The notes below the pieces were generated by a model. The model had not been told where the DNA came from. It searched no databases and worked only from the letters and a program-made list of their open reading frames with translations. The position numbers and the translations under genes are program-made. This document shows positions 4,386 through 50,206 of a DNA stretch of 64,000 nt, piece by piece. Location: positions 1-64,000 of the forward strand of contig JAFTWG010000017.1 of assembly GCA_017465405.1 (NCBI GenBank), read 5' to 3'. This stretch comes from Alphaproteobacteria bacterium (GTDB taxonomy: Bacteria; Pseudomonadota; Alphaproteobacteria; RF32; CAG-239). Position 1 is the first letter of the stretch. Every line of letters begins with the position of its first letter.

Positions 4386-7300
4386 AAAAACTTTGGGCAG
4401 TTACCAAAAATGAGTTGTTACGATACTTCATTTCTCCGTTGGCTTATGTATATTTAATAGCTTTTTTGGTTTTAAACGGTTCTTTTGCTGTCTATTTCGG
4501 ACATTTTATAGAAAGAGGAATTGCTGATTTAACCCCGATGTTTGGTTTTCAGCCGTGGCTTTATCTGCTTTTTATTCCCGGAATTTCCATGAGATTATGG
4601 TCTGAAGAATTTAGAAATAAAACAATTGTTCAAATCGTTACCATGCCAGTCAGTATTACAACTCTTGTTTTAGGTAAATTTTTTGCGTCATGGATATTTG
4701 TTTTAATCGCCCTTCTCTTAACTTTTCCCTTTTGGATTTTGGTAAATTATTTGGGACAACCGGACAATGCCGTTATTTTCGTAAGCTATCTTGGGAGCTG
4801 GTTATTAGCCGGTTGTATGCTTGCTATATCTCAAACAATGTCATCTTTGACTAAAAATCAAGTGATAGCTTTGGTTTTATCGGTTGTTGCAAATTTCTTG
4901 TTCTTTGTCAGCGGTATTGAATATGTTTTAGGTTTCTTTAGAATGTTTACTCCGGCAAGCATTGTTGACATGATAGCTTCTTTCAGTTTTCTAACTCATT
5001 TCGGACAAGTAATGAGCGGATTGTTTGAATTCAGATATATGGTTTTCGTGATATCAATAATTTTGTTGTTTAATATTGCTACGATTTTAATTGTTAGCTT
5101 TAAGACATCGGGAACTTCAAAATGGCTAAAATCTAATCAAGCAGGATATTATGTGATAATATTTTTAATGATGTTGCTCGGTTTTGTCGGATTAAATTTA
5201 TCTTGTAATAATTTTTTCAGAACATGGCAGTATGATTTTACGGAAGAGAAAATTTATACTCTTTCTCCTTCGTCACAAAAAATATTGAATGATATTCCCG
5301 AAAAAATTACGGCAAAGTTTTATTATTCTCCTATTTTAGGGCAAAGAAATCCGGAAATACGAATAATGTATGATAGGATAAGATTATTATTGCAAAGATT
5401 TCATAATCTTGAACCCGACAAATTCAGTTTTCGTATATATAATCCTGAACCGCTTACCGAGGCAGAAGATGCCGCGATATCATCCGGTTTACAACCTATT
5501 CCTTTGATAGAGTTGAGCAGAAACGGGTATATGGGAATCGTTTTCAGTGATGCGATTGATAATAAAACAATTATACCGTTTTTTCCAATTGAAAGGCAGA
5601 CTTTTTTAGAACAAGATTTGATGGAAAAAATATATCAACTTATTCATAAGAAAAAAGTTGTAGGTATCATTTCCGGTCTTCCGATTATGGAAACACAACA
5701 AGAAGTCGGATATATTTCTCCGGAATGGAATATTATTTCTGAAATAAAAAAGTTTTACGATATAAAGATTATTAAGAAATCTGAAGATTTTCCTCAAATT
5801 GATGTTTTAATGTTAGTTCACCCGCAAAATTTGAGTGATGAGTTTGTTAATGAAATCAAAAGATATTCAAAACAAGGCGGAAAAACTTTGTTGTTGCTTG
5901 ATACTGCAGCCGAAGCTCCACGTATTTTTTCTGCAGTAAACACTGAATTTTATCCTTCAGATGTAAAAGATTTAGATAAATTTTTCGGTTTTAGGATGTA
6001 TAATGAATTGATAGTTGTGGATTTAGACAACTCAATAACGGTTGATGCAACAAAAAATTATTCGACTAATCCTATTTTTACTCAAGATGTTGTGCAATTT
6101 GTTTTGCCTAATGATAGTATGAATCCGGATTTTGATATAACCAAAAATTTGCAATCAATTTTGTTTGCTTCAACATCTCTCTTGGTTCCTGATGGTTATA
6201 ATAGTGAATTTACTCCGCTTATTGTTGGTGGAAAAAATTCAGGGATTATGCCCTCAAGCGTTGTATATGAAGGAATAAATCCGGCAGATTTGTTGAATGA
6301 TTTTGAGCCGATAAACAAACTGAAAGTTATTGCTGCCTTATTAAAAAGCAGAAACTCATATTTGCCGTTTGAAGCAATAGTTGTCGCTGATACAGATTTT
6401 ATTTATGATACTTTTTGGAGTAAAGGAAGAACAATTCTTGAAAACAACTATTTTGTTCCGGTTTATGATAATGCTAATTTCATATTGAATGCTCTGGATT
6501 ATTTGAGCGGTAATAATGATTTAATTTCTTTGCGAGGAAAAATTCATAAAATAAGAGTTTTTGAAGATTTTGAAAATATGCGTAAGCAAAATATCAGACA
6601 ATTCCGATTAAAAGAACATGATATTTTTAATAAAATAAATTACACCAAAGCGGCTCTTAATGAAATTACTGCAAAAAGAAATTTTGAAGAAAGAGAAATT
6701 TTTACAGCGGATGAGCAAGCCCTAATTGCAAGAACCCGTCAAAATTTACAAAATCTTTTAACAGAACTGGGAGATATAAGAATTAATATGCACAAAAATT
6801 TGCAGGATCTCTCAATGATGATAAAATTATCAACGATATTTTCCGTACCGTTGTTGATAATTATTGTATTGATTTTCCAAAGTATTTTGAAAAACAAACA
6901 ATGGCATAATTTTTCATTATCATTTAGTTTTAATAAAGAATTTACCAAAACTGCTTTTGGTGTATTAACTTTTGTTATGATTGGTGCTGTTTCGGTTTAT
7001 TTCTCCACTAAAGACGATTGGAGTGAATTTGAAAATAAAAAAGTTTTTTCAAATTTTGTTGAAGAACTTAATAATATTACCAACATTAATTTATCTTCTA
7101 AAAATGAAAATATTGAATTTATTTACGATAATGGTGAATGGAAAATAAAAAACAGTCCTTGTATGGTTGTACATCAAGAAAGGATCAGACGCTTTTTAAC
7201 AGAAATTGCGAATATGCAATATTATGAAAAAAAATCAGATAAATTGGAAAATTTAGGAGCTTTCGGTTTGAATTTTTCCGGAAAAGACGTTGAAGATGGA

Positions 7301-7834
7301 ATTAAAATAGTTATATCCGGAGAAAAAGAAAAGTTTGCTGAATTTTATCTTGGAAAATATGATATAGACATAGGAAGAGGCGGACGTGCCGCTTATATCC
7401 GTTTTCCGAATGAATTTCAAGTATGGATGGTTAGAGCTGATTTGATTGATATGTCAATAGCTCCTATTAATTGGGCTTACGGAAGTTTGTGGAATCTGCG
7501 TTTCGGAAGACTGAAAGGTTTCAATAAGGTCGATAATCAAAACAGAATTATGGTGCTGATAAAAGAATTACTTAACACATTTTACATAGGTGAAGAAAAA
7601 GAAATTCAAGATAGTAAAAAAGTGTTGGATATTGTTTTGCACACAGAAAATGATATTGATGTTTCTATTGACTTTGTGAAGAAAAATGAAGATATATATG
7701 TCAAATATCACTTTCCGAAAGAATTAGGACAATCTCATTTAGGCTATTTTGCTAAAACTGCGGATAAGTGTTATTACAAAATTGATAAAAATAAATTTAA
7801 GGAAATAGAAAATGTCGTTATTACGGCAAGATAA
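4382..7834 (+). CDS. Three-part ABC-2 permease / GldG-like / DUF4340-like fusion protein
   Basis: An unusually long protein of 1150 residues. Residues 1 to about 240 form a six-helix ABC-2 permease (GldF-like). Around 258 a second membrane helix starts a GldG-like, ABC-associated periplasmic region (KIYTLSPSSQKILNDI, then VVGIISGLP) that ends near 825 in another membrane helix. From about 855 a further helix leads to a C-terminal region with GEWKIKNSP, FGLNF and the LWNLRFGRL segment, matching what I know of DUF4340. In many bacteria these three parts are separate adjacent genes; here they are one frame with no internal stop. It pairs with the ATPase at 3657. In gliding bacteria GldAFG supports motility or secretion, but most homologues elsewhere have no assigned substrate. 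Confidence 0.82.
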   Translation: MKKLWAVTKNELLRYFISPLAYVYLIAFLVLNGSFAVYFGHFIERGIADLTPMFGFQPWLYLLFIPGISMRLWSEEFRNKTIVQIVTMPVSITTLVLGKFFASWIFVLIALLLTFPFWILVNYLGQPDNAVIFVSYLGSWLLAGCMLAISQTMSSLTKNQVIALVLSVVANFLFFVSGIEYVLGFFRMFTPASIVDMIASFSFLTHFGQVMSGLFEFRYMVFVISIILLFNIATILIVSFKTSGTSKWLKSNQAGYYVIIFLMMLLGFVGLNLSCNNFFRTWQYDFTEEKIYTLSPSSQKILNDIPEKITAKFYYSPILGQRNPEIRIMYDRIRLLLQRFHNLEPDKFSFRIYNPEPLTEAEDAAISSGLQPIPLIELSRNGYMGIVFSDAIDNKTIIPFFPIERQTFLEQDLMEKIYQLIHKKKVVGIISGLPIMETQQEVGYISPEWNIISEIKKFYDIKIIKKSEDFPQIDVLMLVHPQNLSDEFVNEIKRYSKQGGKTLLLLDTAAEAPRIFSAVNTEFYPSDVKDLDKFFGFRMYNELIVVDLDNSITVDATKNYSTNPIFTQDVVQFVLPNDSMNPDFDITKNLQSILFASTSLLVPDGYNSEFTPLIVGGKNSGIMPSSVVYEGINPADLLNDFEPINKLKVIAALLKSRNSYLPFEAIVVADTDFIYDTFWSKGRTILENNYFVPVYDNANFILNALDYLSGNNDLISLRGKIHKIRVFEDFENMRKQNIRQFRLKEHDIFNKINYTKAALNEITAKRNFEEREIFTADEQALIARTRQNLQNLLTELGDIRINMHKNLQDLSMMIKLSTIFSVPLLIIIVLIFQSILKNKQWHNFSLSFSFNKEFTKTAFGVLTFVMIGAVSVYFSTKDDWSEFENKKVFSNFVEELNNITNINLSSKNENIEFIYDNGEWKIKNSPCMVVHQERIRRFLTEIANMQYYEKKSDKLENLGAFGLNFSGKDVEDGIKIVISGEKEKFAEFYLGKYDIDIGRGGRAAYIRFPNEFQVWMVRADLIDMSIAPINWAYGSLWNLRFGRLKGFNKVDNQNRIMVLIKELLNTFYIGEEKEIQDSKKVLDIVLHTENDIDVSIDFVKKNEDIYVKYHFPKELGQSHLGYFAKTADKCYYKIDKNKFKEIENVVITAR

Positions 7835-8726
7835 TAACGGTTTGAAAAAAATAGCTGCAGCGGCAAGTGTTTTTTTATCAATAAGTTTAATGTTGATAAA
7901 GCTCTTTGCTTCTGTTTATACCGGTTCTTTGGCTGTACTGTCATCGCTTGTTGACAGTATATCGGACATTTTTGCTTCTCTGATAACTTTTATTGCGGTA
8001 CGATTTTCAACTCTTCCTGCCAGTAAAAATCATCGTTACGGTTATGGAAAAGCAGAAGCTTTAAGTGCACTTATTCAATCCGCTTTCGTAGCAGGTTCAG
8101 GAATATTTGTAATATATGAAGGTATTGACAGGATATTTAATCCTCGCCCGCTAAACGATACTTTTTTCGGAATATTGGTTATGGTTATAAGTTTTTTTGC
8201 TACATTGTTTTTGATATTGTTTCAAAAATACGTAGTAAAAAAAACTTCATCAATAGCTGTTCAAGCGGATAGCTTACACTATATGGTTGATATTATAACA
8301 AATGCGACGATAATACTAAGTCTTTTAGTAGTAAAGTTTTTTAATGTATGGTGGTTTGATACTCTGACAGCAATCTTTGTTTCAGGATATTTATTATATA
8401 ATGCGTACAAGATAGCAAAAAGTGCAATTTCTTTATTGCTTGACAAAGAACTGGGAGCAGATATCAGAAAATCAATAGAAAATATCGTTAAAAATTGTAG
8501 TTTTTGTTTAGGTATGCACGATTTAAGAACTCGTGATTTAGGCGGTATTTATATTTTTGAGTTTCATTTGGAATTAGACGGCAATTTATCTTTATACAAT
8601 GCTCATAAATTAACGGATATCATAGAACGAGAAGTAAAAAATCTTTATCCCGGAGCACAAGTCATCATTCACCAAGATCCGGCAGGATTGGAAGAGGAAA
8701 GACTTGATAATATTCTTGTAAAGTAA
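7812..8726 (+). CDS. Cation diffusion facilitator family efflux protein (FieF/CzcD-like)
   Basis: A 304-residue protein with about six membrane helices followed by a cytoplasmic C-terminal domain. The metal-site segments are visible: SSLVDSISDIFAS in helix 2 (two Asp) and SLHYMVDIITN in helix 5 (His/Asp). Such proteins exchange Zn2+, Fe2+ or Mn2+ for protons across the inner membrane. The C-terminal part (from about 205) contains a dimerisation-type domain with conserved His in QVIIHQDP. Its ATG lies 23 bases inside the end of the upstream ABC gene, suggesting translational coupling. Metal specificity is not deducible. Confidence 0.88.
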   Translation: MSLLRQDNNGLKKIAAAASVFLSISLMLIKLFASVYTGSLAVLSSLVDSISDIFASLITFIAVRFSTLPASKNHRYGYGKAEALSALIQSAFVAGSGIFVIYEGIDRIFNPRPLNDTFFGILVMVISFFATLFLILFQKYVVKKTSSIAVQADSLHYMVDIITNATIILSLLVVKFFNVWWFDTLTAIFVSGYLLYNAYKIAKSAISLLLDKELGADIRKSIENIVKNCSFCLGMHDLRTRDLGGIYIFEFHLELDGNLSLYNAHKLTDIIEREVKNLYPGAQVIIHQDPAGLEEERLDNILVK

Positions 8727-17365: not shown

Positions 17366-17881
17366 ATGATGAGTGCTTTGTTTTTAGAATTCTTCAAAAT
17401 AGGACTGTTTTCTTTAGGCGGTGGTATGGTTACAGTTCCGTTTTTATTCGAACTTTCTTATAAATATTCGTGGTTTTCGTCACAAGAATTGATAGATATG
17501 ATAGCTATTGCCGAATCATCTCCGGGACCGATAGGTGTCAATATGGCAACTTATGCAGGATTTAAAACATCGGGGATTTTAGGAGGATTAGTTGCGACAT
17601 TCGGATTGGTGGTGCCATCATTAATAATCATCATTTTAATAGCAAAAGTTTTGGAAAAATATAAAGATTCTGACTTTTTTAAGCGACTGATGTATGCAAT
17701 TCATCCGGCCGTTATTGCGTTGATTTTGAATGCCGGAACAGAAATAGGGAAATTGGTGCTGATAAATACTTGGGCTATTTCAATTTGTATATTATTTTGG
17801 GGCGCAATTCATTTTATCAAACTGCACCCCATTTTATATATAATTCTCGGAGGAATTATCGGTATAGCTCTGAAATTATAA
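17366..17881 (+). CDS. Chromate transporter family protein, second half-size subunit
   Basis: A 171-residue CHR domain with FFKIGLFSLGGGMVTVPFL and SSPGPIGVNMATYAG, paralogous to the preceding gene. GAGG lies 9 bases before the ATG. The two half-size proteins probably assemble into one transporter with opposite topology, as reported for Bacillus ChrA pairs. The stop overlaps the convergent gapR gene by 6 bases. Confidence 0.88.
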   Translation: MMSALFLEFFKIGLFSLGGGMVTVPFLFELSYKYSWFSSQELIDMIAIAESSPGPIGVNMATYAGFKTSGILGGLVATFGLVVPSLIIIILIAKVLEKYKDSDFFKRLMYAIHPAVIALILNAGTEIGKLVLINTWAISICILFWGAIHFIKLHPILYIILGGIIGIALKL

Positions 17882-18118
17882 ATCAAGAGCTTTACGATAT
17901 GTATCAAGAAGATATTGTTGTTCTTCTCTGTCGCTAGCATTCATTTTGCGCAATTTTATGATTGTGCGCATAATTTTTACATCAAAACCGGCTGATTTAG
18001 CTTCAGCATATATATCTCTTATGTCTTCGCTTAAAGCCTTTTTTTCTTCTTCCAAACGTTCGATTCTTTCAATTAAAGAACGCAAACGATCACTGGCAAT
18101 ACCACCAACTTCTGTCAT
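17876..18118 (-). CDS. gapR: GapR-family (DUF2312) nucleoid-associated DNA-binding protein
   Basis: An 80-residue, charged, helical protein starting MTEVGGIASDRLRSLIERIE. I choose the second ATG because GGAG lies 6 bases before it, while the first (18130) has none. The sequence RLEEEKKALSEDIRDIYAEA followed by GFDVKIMRTIIKLRKM is the DUF2312 pattern. In Caulobacter GapR binds overtwisted AT-rich DNA and supports topoisomerase action during replication. The family is largely alphaproteobacterial, which supports the taxonomic call. Confidence 0.9.
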   Translation of the reverse strand: MTEVGGIASDRLRSLIERIERLEEEKKALSEDIRDIYAEAKSAGFDVKIMRTIIKLRKMNASDREEQQYLLDTYRKALDL

Positions 18119-46189: not shown

Positions 46190-48028
46190 ATGAGCGAAAA
46201 AATGAACTTTCAAGCAGAAGTAAATAAGATGTTGAATATTGTGGTTAATTCACTTTATTCGGAAAAATATATTTTTTTACGAGAACTTGTTTCTAATGCC
46301 TCCGATGCTTGTGACAAGCTTAAATATTTATCGTTGACCAATCCGGATATTGCAAAAGGTAACGGCGAGTTAAAAATTGTTTTAACTCCAGATGATAAAA
46401 ATAATACACTTACAATTTCGGATAACGGTATCGGAATGAACAAAGATGATTTGATAAATCATCTGGGCACAATAGCAAAATCGGGAACTTCGGATTTTGT
46501 GGCAAATATGAAAGAAAATGGTTCGGCTGCCGATTTGATAGGTCAGTTCGGTGTCGGTTTTTATTCTGCATTTATGGTTGCCGAAAAGGTTGAGATAATC
46601 ACCAAAAAAGCCGGAGAGGAACAGGCTTATAAATGGGTATCAAACGGAGTTGACGGTTTTGAAATCGAATCGGCGGAAAAGAGTGAAAACGGAACAGAAA
46701 TAAAATTGTTCTTAAAAGAGGAAGACAAGAATTTTACCGATACAATCTATCTTCGTCATTTAATCAGAACATATTCTGACCATATCAGTTATCCGATAGT
46801 ATTAAATTTGACGGAGGCCGGCGAAGAAACGATTAATAGCGGTTCTGCTTTATGGACCAGAAACAAAGGTGAAATCACTCAAGAGCAATATAAAGAATTT
46901 TATCAACACATTTCACATAATTTTGATGAACCATGGTTAACTCTGCATTTTAAGGCAGAAGGAAGCATTGAATATACATCTTTGTTATTTATTCCATCGA
47001 GTCAGCCTTATGATTTGTTTCAGCCTGATAAAAAACAAGGACTAAAACTTTATGTGAACAGGGTGTTTATTTCCGACAAGGTAGAAGAATTGATGCCGAA
47101 TTATTTGCGTTTTGTTAAGGGAATCGTTGATTCTTCTGATTTGCCATTAAATATTTCTCGTGAAATGTTGCAACAAAATGCGTTGATTGCAAAAATCAAA
47201 AACGGAATTGTCGGCAGATTGTTAAAAGATTTGAAAAAGCGTTTTGAAAATTATGACGATTATAGCAAATTTTGGGATAATTTCGGGATTGCTTTTAAAG
47301 AAGGTATTTATGAAGACTTTTCGAATCGGGAAGAAATTGCCTCATTATCTCTATTTAGTTCTACAAAAAGCGGCGAAAAGTTGACGAGTTTAGATGCTTA
47401 TATTGAGCGTATGCAATCTGAACAAAATGCTATTTATTATATTACCGGTGATGATGTTAAAGTTTTAGCAAACAATCCGCAGTTGGAAGCATTTAAACAA
47501 AAAGGTTTAGAAGTATTGCTTTTAACCGATCCGATAGATGAATTTTGGACTCAAACTTTGCCTAATTATAAAGGAAAAGTTATCAAGCATATTTCACAGG
47601 CTGATGTTGATTTTTCTTTTGAAAGAAAAGAAGCTAAAGCTGAGGAAGGAAGTTTGGAAAAACTTATAAATTATATGCAAGATTTGTTTAAGGACGAAGT
47701 TGGAAAAGTCGAATCGACGGAAAAACTTACATCAAGTCCGGTCAGTTTAACTGTTGAAAACGGACAGATGAGTATCCATCTGGAACGATTGATGAGAAAT
47801 CATCAACAACAAACAGCTTTTAATTCGACTCGTATTTTAGAAATAAACCCATATCATCCGTTGATTATTAAATTGAGCGAATCGATAGAAGATGAAAATA
47901 AAAAACAAGAAATTGAAAAAATTTCAAAAATATTGCTTGATCAGGCAAAAATAGCAGAAGGAGAACCTATAAAAGACAGTTCTTTTTACGTTTCTGCAAT
48001 AAGTGAATATATTTTGAAAGGCTTTTAA
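46190..48028 (+). CDS. htpG: Chaperone HtpG (Hsp90)
   Basis: A 612-residue Hsp90. The ATPase lid and Bergerat fold are visible: ELVSNASDACDKLKYL, LTISDNGIGMNKDDL and LIGQFGVGFYSAFMVA. The middle domain has LPLNISREMLQQN. The C-terminal dimer domain ends with FYVSAISEYILKGF. It folds client proteins under stress. GGAGAG precedes the ATG, a heat-shock-like promoter lies upstream, and a strong terminator follows. Confidence 0.97.
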   Translation: MSEKMNFQAEVNKMLNIVVNSLYSEKYIFLRELVSNASDACDKLKYLSLTNPDIAKGNGELKIVLTPDDKNNTLTISDNGIGMNKDDLINHLGTIAKSGTSDFVANMKENGSAADLIGQFGVGFYSAFMVAEKVEIITKKAGEEQAYKWVSNGVDGFEIESAEKSENGTEIKLFLKEEDKNFTDTIYLRHLIRTYSDHISYPIVLNLTEAGEETINSGSALWTRNKGEITQEQYKEFYQHISHNFDEPWLTLHFKAEGSIEYTSLLFIPSSQPYDLFQPDKKQGLKLYVNRVFISDKVEELMPNYLRFVKGIVDSSDLPLNISREMLQQNALIAKIKNGIVGRLLKDLKKRFENYDDYSKFWDNFGIAFKEGIYEDFSNREEIASLSLFSSTKSGEKLTSLDAYIERMQSEQNAIYYITGDDVKVLANNPQLEAFKQKGLEVLLLTDPIDEFWTQTLPNYKGKVIKHISQADVDFSFERKEAKAEEGSLEKLINYMQDLFKDEVGKVESTEKLTSSPVSLTVENGQMSIHLERLMRNHQQQTAFNSTRILEINPYHPLIIKLSESIEDENKKQEIEKISKILLDQAKIAEGEPIKDSSFYVSAISEYILKGF

Positions 48029-48034
48029 TTTACA

Positions 48035-48069
48035 AATGTCGTCGATTTTTTACATCGGCGACATTTTTT
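48035..48069 (+). terminator. Terminator after htpG
   Basis: Stem AATGTCGTCGAT / ATCGGCGACATT (one G-U wobble) with an 8-base loop and a T6 run, 7 bases after the htpG stop. Confidence 0.9.
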
Positions 48070-48072
48070 GTC

Positions 48073-48101
48073 TTGATTTTTGTCAAGAAGAGATATATAC
48101 T
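48073..48101 (+). promoter_or_regulatory. Candidate promoter upstream of the structured region
   Basis: TTGATT (48073-48078) and TATACT (48096-48101) are 17 bases apart. Transcription from here would start near 48108 and cover the structured region and the SPFH gene. Confidence 0.45.
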
Positions 48102-48159: not shown

Positions 48160-48320
48160 GGATTTTGACAAAGATTTTTCTTTGTAACTCAAGCTCTCAA
48201 CTATTTTAATGAAGTATTTATATACAAGATAAAGAGTCTTTCGCGAGGCCGCCCGCTGTTTTTACAGTTTGAAATTGCGTATTTCAGGGATCAGAGTAGA
48301 ATCGTTTTAAAATAGTTTTT
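48160..48320 (+). ncRNA. Structured intergenic region, possible ncRNA or 5' leader of the SPFH gene
   Basis: The 343-base gap between htpG and the SPFH gene contains no ORF but clear pairing potential: hairpin ACAAAG-ATTTTT-CTTTGT (48168-48185); an 11-base helix AACTATTTTAA (48199-48209) with TTAAAATAGTT (48307-48317) enclosing about 97 bases; and within it hairpins CTGT-TTTT-ACAG and GAAAT-TGCGT-ATTTC. A GC-rich patch CGCGAGGCCGCCCGC interrupts the otherwise AT-rich DNA. The outline (long closing stem, interior bulge) recalls 6S-like or regulatory RNAs, but I cannot match any family, and there is no T-run terminator before the gene. Confidence 0.4.
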
Positions 48321-48371: not shown

Positions 48372-49196
48372 ATGCGTATGTCATACAATAGTTACGACAG
48401 CGAAGTAAGCGTAAAGAGCATCATTAAGTGGGTTGCAATCGGTCTTGGTGCCGTGTTGCTTATCTGTGTCTTGATCGGCGGTATCTACAGTGTAGATCCT
48501 GGTCACCGTGGTGTCTTAACGACCCTTGGTAAGGTAGAGCAGAAGAGCTACCCGAATGGTGTGGGCTTTAAGTGGCCTTTTATCAGCTCGATGACTGAGA
48601 TTGATGTCCGTACCAAGACGATGACAGCACAGACTTCATCGTACACCAGTGATGTGCAGACAGCCGCTATGGAGTATACGTTCACGTACGAGCTTGTTCC
48701 TAACAATGTCCATGTTCTCTACGAGAGTGTGGGTATGGATTATGAGACCAAGAAGATTGTTCCTGTTCTCAATGACGTTCTCAAGGACGTAGTTGGTAAG
48801 TGGCAGGCACAGGACTTGGTAAGTAATCGTGATAAGGCTCGTGAGGAAGTGTTGATGGGTCTGCAGAGCAGATTGGACAACAACTTCTTCCAGAACGTGA
48901 CCTTCCAGTTCATTAACATCGATTACTCGGATAAGTTCGAGGATGCGATTGAGAACAAGGTTATTGCCGAGCAGCGTGCACAGCAGGCCGTTAATGATAC
49001 CAAGCGTATTCAGGAAGAGGCTGAGCAGAAAGTAATTACTGCAAAGGCTGAAGCTGAAGCGATGGAGATCAAGGCTAAGGCTCTTGAGCGCAACAAGTCG
49101 CTCGTGGATTATGAGGCCGTTCTTAAGTGGGATGGTAAGTTGCCTCAGTATATGCTGGGCAACTCGGTTCCTATGATTAATATGGGTACCAAGTAA
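48372..49196 (+). CDS. SPFH/prohibitin-family membrane protein with foreign codon use
   Basis: A 274-residue protein: a cytoplasmic N-terminus, one membrane helix (about residues 17-38), then an SPFH/band-7 domain beginning YSVDPGHRGVLTTLGKVEQ and a C-terminal Glu/Ala/Lys coiled coil (EQRAQQAVNDTKRIQEEAEQ). Such proteins form membrane-bound oligomers, as prohibitin and HflK/HflC do. The gene has about 45-48% GC against about a third around it, nearly all Lys codons AAG, all Gln CAG and almost all Glu GAG; flanking genes prefer AAA, CAA and GAA. No Shine-Dalgarno is visible before either ATG (48372, 48378). This suggests recent acquisition, perhaps from a Bacteroidetes-like donor or phage. Confidence 0.8.
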   Translation: MRMSYNSYDSEVSVKSIIKWVAIGLGAVLLICVLIGGIYSVDPGHRGVLTTLGKVEQKSYPNGVGFKWPFISSMTEIDVRTKTMTAQTSSYTSDVQTAAMEYTFTYELVPNNVHVLYESVGMDYETKKIVPVLNDVLKDVVGKWQAQDLVSNRDKAREEVLMGLQSRLDNNFFQNVTFQFINIDYSDKFEDAIENKVIAEQRAQQAVNDTKRIQEEAEQKVITAKAEAEAMEIKAKALERNKSLVDYEAVLKWDGKLPQYMLGNSVPMINMGTK

Positions 49197-49222: not shown

Positions 49223-49251
49223 AGGTCCTGCGAAAGCAGGACCTTTCTTTT
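49223..49251 (+). terminator. Terminator after the SPFH gene
   Basis: Stem AGGTCCTGC / GCAGGACCT with a GAAA tetraloop, followed by TTCTTTT. Confidence 0.9.
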
Positions 49252-49336
49252 GTTTAAATTCTAAATTTTATTTGCTTTGAATGTTTTTATGTGCTAGTTA
49301 CTTACTTAATTTTGTGTAACTTTTCGGGAAAAAATT

Positions 49337-50206
49337 GTGGCTAAAAAACGTCGAGTTATGTTTTTGCAATTAAGTCATTTGCGTCGAACCATAAAAAAGT
49401 CGGCAATAGCTTTGCTTTTTATTATGGTTTTTGCATTTATGTTGCTTAATAAAGCTAATAATGCACTCATTGAAAAGACATCAACAACCGCCGGAGAAAT
49501 CATAACTCCGATTACCGAAATTTTGATTATGCCTGCAAGTATTATGCTAAATGGTTATGATTATCTCCGCAGTCTTCGAAAAATAGATGAAGAAAATCAG
49601 CTTTTGAGAGACGAAAACAGAAAACTTATTATTGCTAATGCAAAAAGCAAAGCACTGGAAATAGAAAATAAGATTTTATCTAATTTATTGAATTATCAAG
49701 TGCCCGAGGATGCAAGCTTTATTACCGCAAAAGTGGTAGCAGAAGAGGGAACGGCTTTTTCTCACTCATTGACGGTTTATATTGATGGCAATAAAAATGT
49801 TGCTAAAGGACAAGTTGTTATAAGCGATAAAGGTGTTATCGGAAGAATTGAATCGGTCGGTTATAATTATGCTAAAATTGCAATGATAAATAATATTAAC
49901 TCACGAATTTCGGTAATGGTTGAAAGCTCACGAATCAGAGGAATGTTAGTTGGGCAAAATGATGAATGGCCGGAATTGAAATTTTTACCGCTTGATGCAA
50001 AAATTGAAAAAGGTGATAAAATAATTACTTCGGGAATCGGTGGGGTTTTTCCCGTCGGGCTTCCGGTAGGCGAAGTAGCTTCGGTTGAAAAAAATGTTGT
50101 AAAAATAAAACCGGCAAACAATTTATCTCGGATGGAATATGTGATGATAGTTGATTATAAACTCCCCGACCCTGCTGATGAATTGTATGAGGATTTCGTC
50201 AAATGA
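49337..50206 (+). CDS. mreC: Rod-shape protein MreC
   Basis: A 289-residue protein starting at GTG (CGGGA upstream). A membrane helix lies at about 18-36, a coiled coil follows (NQLLRDENRKLIIANAKSKAL, part), then beta domains with GVIGRIESVGYNYAKIAMI. It organises the elongasome with MreD, PBP2 and RodA. The gene is first in an overlapping mreC-mreD-mrdA-mrdB unit. MreB, normally just upstream, is not in this window. Confidence 0.93.
   Translation: MAKKRRVMFLQLSHLRRTIKKSAIALLFIMVFAFMLLNKANNALIEKTSTTAGEIITPITEILIMPASIMLNGYDYLRSLRKIDEENQLLRDENRKLIIANAKSKALEIENKILSNLLNYQVPEDASFITAKVVAEEGTAFSHSLTVYIDGNKNVAKGQVVISDKGVIGRIESVGYNYAKIAMINNINSRISVMVESSRIRGMLVGQNDEWPELKFLPLDAKIEKGDKIITSGIGGVFPVGLPVGEVASVEKNVVKIKPANNLSRMEYVMIVDYKLPDPADELYEDFVK

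Follow-up and report, generated by a model that had tools for sequence, protein, structure and literature searches.

Organisation of the locus

The stretch of DNA analysed here, 64,000 nucleotides long and referred to as the window, belongs to contig C30 (136,793 bases), one of the 33 contigs of a 1.64-Mb genome (G000), whose relatives include Azospirillum sp. CAG:239 together with rumen, rectum and other Alphaproteobacteria metagenome-assembled genomes (MAGs). The features of the locus are collected in Table 1; the gene names htpG, mreC, mreD, mrdA, typA, gyrA and nifJ, where Pfam does not support them, are those we presume from the sequences. A gene for a prohibitin-type SPFH protein stands between the presumed htpG and mreC, and the insert that carries it lies past the htpG terminator and ahead of the mreC upstream sequence (about 49255-49336), which is conserved with congeners whose site is empty. 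The predicted promoter agrees with the consensus at 9 of 12 positions, no better than chance over the whole region, and a TTGTC/TATACT-like sequence was judged by eye to precede SPFH orthologues as well. Between promoter and leader RNA, inspection by eye revealed no conserved domain.

EF-Tu fragments open four G000 contigs (C30:9-137, C21:9-137, C24:1-126 and C17:1-126), so the assembly was probably broken at two tuf copies, with the contig of the window beginning in one of them.

Table 1. Features of the SPFH locus, in positions of the window
Feature	Position	Strand	Basis
htpG, upstream neighbour, native composition	46190..48028	+	ORF and composition; name presumed; syntenic in congeners
htpG intrinsic terminator; left edge of the cassette just past it	48034..48066	+	Terminator scan; comparison with empty-site congeners
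Predicted sigma-70-like promoter of the cassette (TTGATT, 17 nt, TATACT)	48073..48101	+	Consensus scan
Structured leader RNA, ~90 nt, conserved, without Rfam match	48220..48309	+	Covariance models R1 and R2
Helix P1, closing, weak in the window copy (GAU 48228-48230 with AUC 48301-48303)	48228..48303	+	3 of 6 model pairs covary across the family
Helix P2 (48236-48239 with 48246-48249)	48236..48249	+	2 of 4 pairs covary at E<0.05 across the family
Helix P3a (CCC 48252-48254 with GGG 48287-48289), around P3b and P4	48252..48289	+	100% of cells paired; almost invariant, one compensated U-A
Helix P3b (48256-48258 with 48265-48267)	48256..48267	+	2 of 3 pairs covary
Helix P4 (48270-48275 with 48281-48286)	48270..48286	+	4 of 6 pairs covary
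A/U-rich spacer, 62 nt, without Shine-Dalgarno, ending at the SPFH start codon	48310..48371	+	Sequence
Prohibitin-type SPFH (Band_7) gene, 274 aa	48372..49196	+	ORF; Pfam, phrog and structure-profile matches
Cassette intrinsic terminator	49223..49244	+	Terminator scan
mreC, downstream neighbour	49337..50206	+	ORF; name presumed

Identity and relatives of the SPFH protein

The product had initially been annotated as an SPFH/prohibitin protein, an assignment that profile searches bore out. It belongs to SPFH by its match to Pfam PF01145 Band_7 (98.7 bits, cut-off 23.6, residues 40-218), falls below the cut-off of the HflC equivalog TIGR01932 (46.5 against 134.4 bits), and matches phrog_200 at E 7e-52. 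When a profile of 21 family members was compared with solved structures, the nearest were the prohibitins (prohibitin-2, E 8.2e-35; prohibitin, 6e-33), followed by HflC (4e-11) and HflK (4e-9). By these profile matches, the protein is a prohibitin-type SPFH. It would be anchored in the inner membrane through an N-terminal hydrophobic segment, form ring- or dome-shaped oligomers as prohibitin and HflK/C do, and work as a membrane scaffold.

Within the family the gene is patchy, with matches at E<=1e-40 in 33 of 152 genomes. Genes at least 55% identical occur in 18 family genomes, that of the window included, the closest being those of G093 (77%) and G085 (76%), both of genus g12. In G085, a flotillin-like Band_7 gene (L096:7806-9224) lies directly 5' of the RNA-SPFH unit, so that the two SPFH types adjoin. 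SPFH matches were also found in 48 phage and 68 plasmid records, all below 60% identity, and at seven loci on viral contigs, at 30-48% identity.

Codon usage and composition

The SPFH gene had been singled out for its codon usage, and it proved to be the strongest outlier in the background used, a set of 316 G000 ORFs, each 150 aa or longer, drawn from 425,665 bases (about a quarter of the genome). Lysine is encoded by AAG in 21 of 22 codons, glutamine by CAG in 14 of 14 and glutamate by GAG in 15 of 20; the share of G-ending codons for these three amino acids is 0.89, against a mean of 0.171 (sd 0.109), and ranks first. The same holds for GC3 (0.575 against a mean of 0.28; the GC content of the ORF is 0.472). 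The other window ORFs listed have a GC3 of 0.18-0.33 and mostly use AAG for less than 30% of lysines.

Ordinary high-expression bias in G000 is inadequate to account for this, because the ribosomal-protein ORFs around rplB reach only 0.28 (64 of 226 codons), and as the sole cause for the window copy it was ruled out. It is retained as a partial cause, since Lys, Gln and Glu codons are G-ending more often in the gene than in its flanks at 26 of 30 family SPFH loci (Wilcoxon p 1.6e-7; the exceptions are G085, G005, G136 and G163). The codon bias of the SPFH gene is partly vertical, a property of the gene itself. The signature also recurs in distant SPFH genes, as shown by the one on viral contig locus L134 (3998-4801), which has the same extreme style (AAG 23/27, CAG 14/14, GAG 19/20, GC3 0.84) among neighbours with a GC3 mostly of 0.44-0.70 and one at 0.82.

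Other G000 ORFs favour G-ending Lys, Gln and Glu codons as well (L158:365-1123, 4755-5528 and 5677-7911; L165:7042-7713 and 17375-17929; L156:7796-9088). Several of them resemble Bacteroidetes-type secreted lipoproteins by eye, with no match in Pfam, which likewise gave none for a 376-aa gene of similar codon style on L100.

The start without a Shine-Dalgarno (SD) sequence and the AT-rich leader, which the initial annotation had linked to Bacteroidetes, are both real, but they are shared with alphaproteobacterial relatives. Descent of the gene from Bacteroidetes, to which the codon style, the SD-less leader and the lipoprotein-like ORFs of G000 might point, is very improbable: within the reach of the searches, the homologues at 55-77% identity all come from one alphaproteobacterial family, none of the plasmid or phage records exceeds 60%, and the alphaproteobacterial relatives share both the SD-less leader and the RNA described below. 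A scan of 84,980 species genomes, which reaches close relatives only, returned eight loci, all eight of them in alphaproteobacterial or proteobacterial MAGs.

Synteny, phylogeny and probable acquisition of the gene

The order htpG-SPFH-mreC recurs in G004, which is a different genome from the same genus, and in G011 small ORFs and an efflux system come after htpG-SPFH. These independently assembled arrangements contradict a chimeric contig or binning artefact, an explanation that had been proposed from the start and that the sharp compositional island would invite; the cassette, moreover, fits exactly into the gap between a native-looking terminator and a native-looking promoter region, and such an artefact is hardly credible. 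In four congeners (G009, G002, G012 and G006) the site is empty, htpG being followed directly by mreC across a spacer of about 110-154 bases. The idea that the SPFH gene occupies the usual place of mreB before mreC found no sign in the relatives: the 5' neighbour of mreC is htpG in those four congeners, and in three other relatives it is, by Pfam, RecR, a PEGA-domain protein and an NMO-like protein (the last below its cut-off). Across the mreC regions of genus g1 (loci L085-L095), GC content ranges from 0.34 to 0.51 within the one genus.

In a concatenated MreC, MreD and MrdA tree restricted to g1 genomes, G000 falls with G005, G008 and the G009/G002/G012 group, far from G004 and G011. The SPFH tree, in which 7 of 27 inner branches are drawn open, instead places G000 with G085 and G093 of genus g12 (UFboot 98, SH-aLRT 92) on a long end branch. 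This conflict between gene and species trees points to horizontal acquisition from an unsampled donor. Given the composition, the tree conflict, the patchiness and the four empty sites, recent transfer within the family is likely, from an unsampled higher-GC member, with the gene still unameliorated. Of the transfer that had been suspected at the outset, the recent event therefore stands as likely within the family, and the Bacteroidetes source does not. The gene could have arrived by independent insertion at a favoured site or by replacement of an older copy.

A same-place orthologue carrying the same codon bias had been named beforehand as a sign against transfer, and this was found in half measure: the orthologue in G004 exists, and most relatives are biased in the same direction against their flanks. 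An ancestral presence with subsequent losses is conceivable because G000, G004 and G011, the latter two from another branch of the genus, all have SPFH beside htpG. On this account the gene did not arrive by recent transfer; it disappeared from several relatives, and translational selection maintained its G-ending Lys, Gln and Glu codons, a view favoured by the widespread bias above flanks, which extends to several non-orthologous genes behind the RNA. We nevertheless regard it as unlikely, if far from fanciful. The ribosomal-protein genes fall well short of the SPFH value, GC3 over all codons is raised too, unlike in most relatives compared with their flanks, and the window gene is nearer to its g12 relatives than to the copies of its congeners. 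Recent transfer within the family thus remains the preferred reading.

Structure of the leader RNA

Comparison of the regions upstream of the orthologues revealed a conserved stretch, the leader RNA. From 5' to 3' it consists of the P1 stem, AAAGAG, hairpin P2, CG, P3a enclosing P3b and P4, AUCAG, an A/U-rich sequence and the return of P1. P3a is a CCC/GGG helix, the loop of P4 is near UACGU, and G-U pairs are tolerated in the helices. A possible outer extension of P1 (48201-48209 with 48307-48315) was noted by eye only, and a loop-loop contact between P2 and P4, also considered by eye, was dropped as inconsistent.

The structure, proposed by eye, was evaluated on 10 leaders aligned with MAFFT, no structure being used in the alignment; its covariation was 0.466, whereas 500 shuffles gave 0.243 (sd 0.028) and slid partners never more than 0.142. 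In a 24-row alignment fitted to the covariance model, 92.1% of cells were paired, 19 of 22 pairs had changed on both sides in a compensated manner, and the covariation score was 0.627, against 0.225 (slid partners at most 0.155). A phylogeny-preserving null modelled on R-scape was implemented in our own script, which re-places substitutions randomly on the tree of the sequences. With this null, 11 of 22 pairs covaried at E<0.05 among the 24 copies, in P1, P2, P3b and P4, and no pair outside the structure was significant; in the unfitted 10-row alignment, 4 of 22 were. Compensatory base-pair changes in the leader are therefore in excess of phylogeny, and the comparison supports a five-helix fold with strong covariation.

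Two covariance models were built, R1 from 10 orthologue leaders and R2 from 24 copies; the window copy, itself in the training set, scored 83.6 bits (E 2e-17) with R1 and 83.2 bits (E 5.6e-18) with R2. No Rfam 15 match overlapped the element, either in the window leader at E<=10 or at 11 loci at E<=5. Folding energies, by contrast, lent no support: those of single sequences were unremarkable (z -3.0 to +1.1 over 19 copies, +0.85 for the window copy), P1 was not formed in the minimum-energy fold of the window copy, and RNAalifold recovered only P3a and P4 (7 pairs) from a 15-row MAFFT alignment.

Distribution, cargo and spacing of the leader RNA

R1 gave 26 matches in 23 of 152 family genomes, and R2 gave 27, spread over 24 of the 153 genomes searched in the order, with all 24 belonging to one family. 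Outside the family, with few candidates scored per genome, 1 of 385 class genomes and 1 of 398 phylum genomes matched, in each case only that of the window, which itself carries a single RNA copy. We considered 26 copies credible, namely the R2 matches less that of G166 (E 0.038, no ORF of 90 aa); a weak match in G109 (E 0.045 with R1, absent with R2) was dropped.

Behind these copies lie 16 prohibitin-type SPFH genes, two flotillin-like SPFH genes, seven genes for other small, mostly membrane proteins, and one contig end (G174). Fourteen of the prohibitin-type proteins form one BLAST cluster, the other two being those of G021 and G154, whose longest ORFs begin within the RNA; the flotillin-like Band_7 proteins (G082 and G089) were labelled from length and sequence. 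The non-SPFH cargo, which had no Pfam matches where tested, comprises a 47-aa single-span protein (G084), proteins of 160/161 aa (G002 and G012) with a 163-aa relative (G137), a 125-aa hydrophobic protein (G002 and G012) and a 127-aa protein with an N-terminal hydrophobic segment (G168). The RNA and the 125-aa gene adjoin a gyrA-like 5' end in G002 (L128:2-2551) and G012 (L127), and in the former a second, partial gyrA-like copy lies on the other side, as if the element had been inserted with a duplicated gene fragment. Conversely, 9 of the 18 SPFH orthologues at 55% identity or more are without the element, so the RNA is not essential to the gene.

In the 24 copies measured, the RNA always lies upstream of its gene and in the same direction, ending 54-91 nt from the start codon (median 64; 61-65 in 16 of 24). 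This set omits G174 (contig end), G012:C12 (a near-duplicate) and the weak matches of G109 and G166, and its start codons were the mechanical ORF start in 12 cases, a chosen internal ATG in 11 and that of a short ORF in one. An SD-like word precedes the start in 1 of 24 RNA-led genes, against 172 of 250 G000 genes. Taken together, the genome comparison indicates a conserved RNA fold at a fixed upstream position, restricted to one family among the genomes searched and associated mainly with SPFH genes.

In eight genomes of two genera, the RNA stands divergent beside nifJ with four kinds of cargo: SPFH subfamily B (G086, G091, G095 and G105), flotillin-like (G082 and G089), the 47-aa protein (G084) and SPFH subfamily A (G127). 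This variety at one site, together with the patchy distribution, might suggest that the conserved element acts as DNA, for instance as a recombination or attachment site moving the cassette, rather than as a leader RNA. Such a role is improbable in view of the G-U pairs accepted in the helices and of the constant placement 5' of a co-directed gene at a near-fixed distance from the start codon; furthermore, no integrase or transposase was recognised adjoining the element, in flanks annotated unsystematically.

That the cassette is phage cargo (a moron) and its RNA a phage element carries comparably little probability. The phrog_200 match and the SPFH genes on phage records and viral contigs speak for it, as does the 160-aa protein behind the RNA in G012 (L119:969-1451), whose only matches in the phage collection are to Fusobacterium phage, at about 32% identity. 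Against it, 12 phage or viral loci held no convincing RNA (best E 0.16), two exact-pattern scans of viral contigs gave 0 matches, and phage SPFH copies lie in dense gene arrays; a phage origin of the RNA was accordingly set aside.

Proposed function and significance

The element looks like a new cis-regulatory leader RNA. Transcription would start at about 48110 and place the RNA within the leader, where it may act in cis on translation initiation of an SD-less mRNA, whether by sensing in the manner of a riboswitch or by recruiting ribosomes as a structured standby element; the membrane scaffold would then be made under a particular condition. Control at the level of translation is suggested because the scan of the window leader found no terminator-like site between RNA and start codon and because the distance to the start codon is nearly constant. 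We consider it probable that the interval from 48067 to about 49250 is a self-contained one-gene cassette of promoter, leader RNA, prohibitin-type SPFH gene and terminator, which occupies part of the htpG-mreC spacer, past the terminator of htpG and ahead of the promoter of mreC, most likely came to this AT-rich genome recently from a higher-GC relative within its gut alphaproteobacterial family, and carries an RNA acting in cis on translation.

A bolder proposal, possible but short of probable, is that the RNA represents a new riboswitch-like class: it would sense a signal related to the envelope or membrane and turn the SD-independent translation of genes for membrane scaffolds on or off, as a portable module with varied cargo at the nifJ locus that travels with its gene between gut alphaproteobacteria. 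Prohibitins and flotillins are membrane organisers across life, and we know of no ligand-sensing RNA that controls them. If the proposal holds, the association of one leader RNA class with three SPFH subfamilies and with small membrane proteins would offer a direct handle on the purpose of bacterial scaffolds, by way of whatever ligand or condition the RNA responds to. The element would also exemplify a structured RNA acting 5' of SD-less start codons in a genome whose genes mostly have SD sequences.

A full-text search for literature joining SPFH and riboswitch returned nothing relevant, and other literature searches returned nothing on the element. The main text of a human-microbiome RNA survey (PMC8040213) has no mention of SPFH, prohibitin, Band 7, flotillin, HflC or Azospirillum; unnamed candidates in its supplements could include this element.

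Comparison with known systems

The element differs from catalogued riboswitches and structured 5' leaders in being without an Rfam match, in having no intrinsic terminator or SD to control in the window leader, and in its confinement to one family in the genomes searched. It resembles them in its closing stem, in a junction with the conserved unpaired segments AAAGAG, GCCC and GGGAUCAG, and in a coherent set of downstream genes. The phage prohibitin-like proteins of phrog_200 belong by profile to the same protein family as the window SPFH, although the phage copies are at most 48% identical among those searched and are without the leader RNA. Compared with prohibitin/HflC-type SPFH proteins, the window gene is below the HflC cut-off and solitary, with no hflK or ftsH adjoining, yet its product shares with them the Band_7 domain and the hydrophobic N-terminal segment ahead of the SPFH domain.
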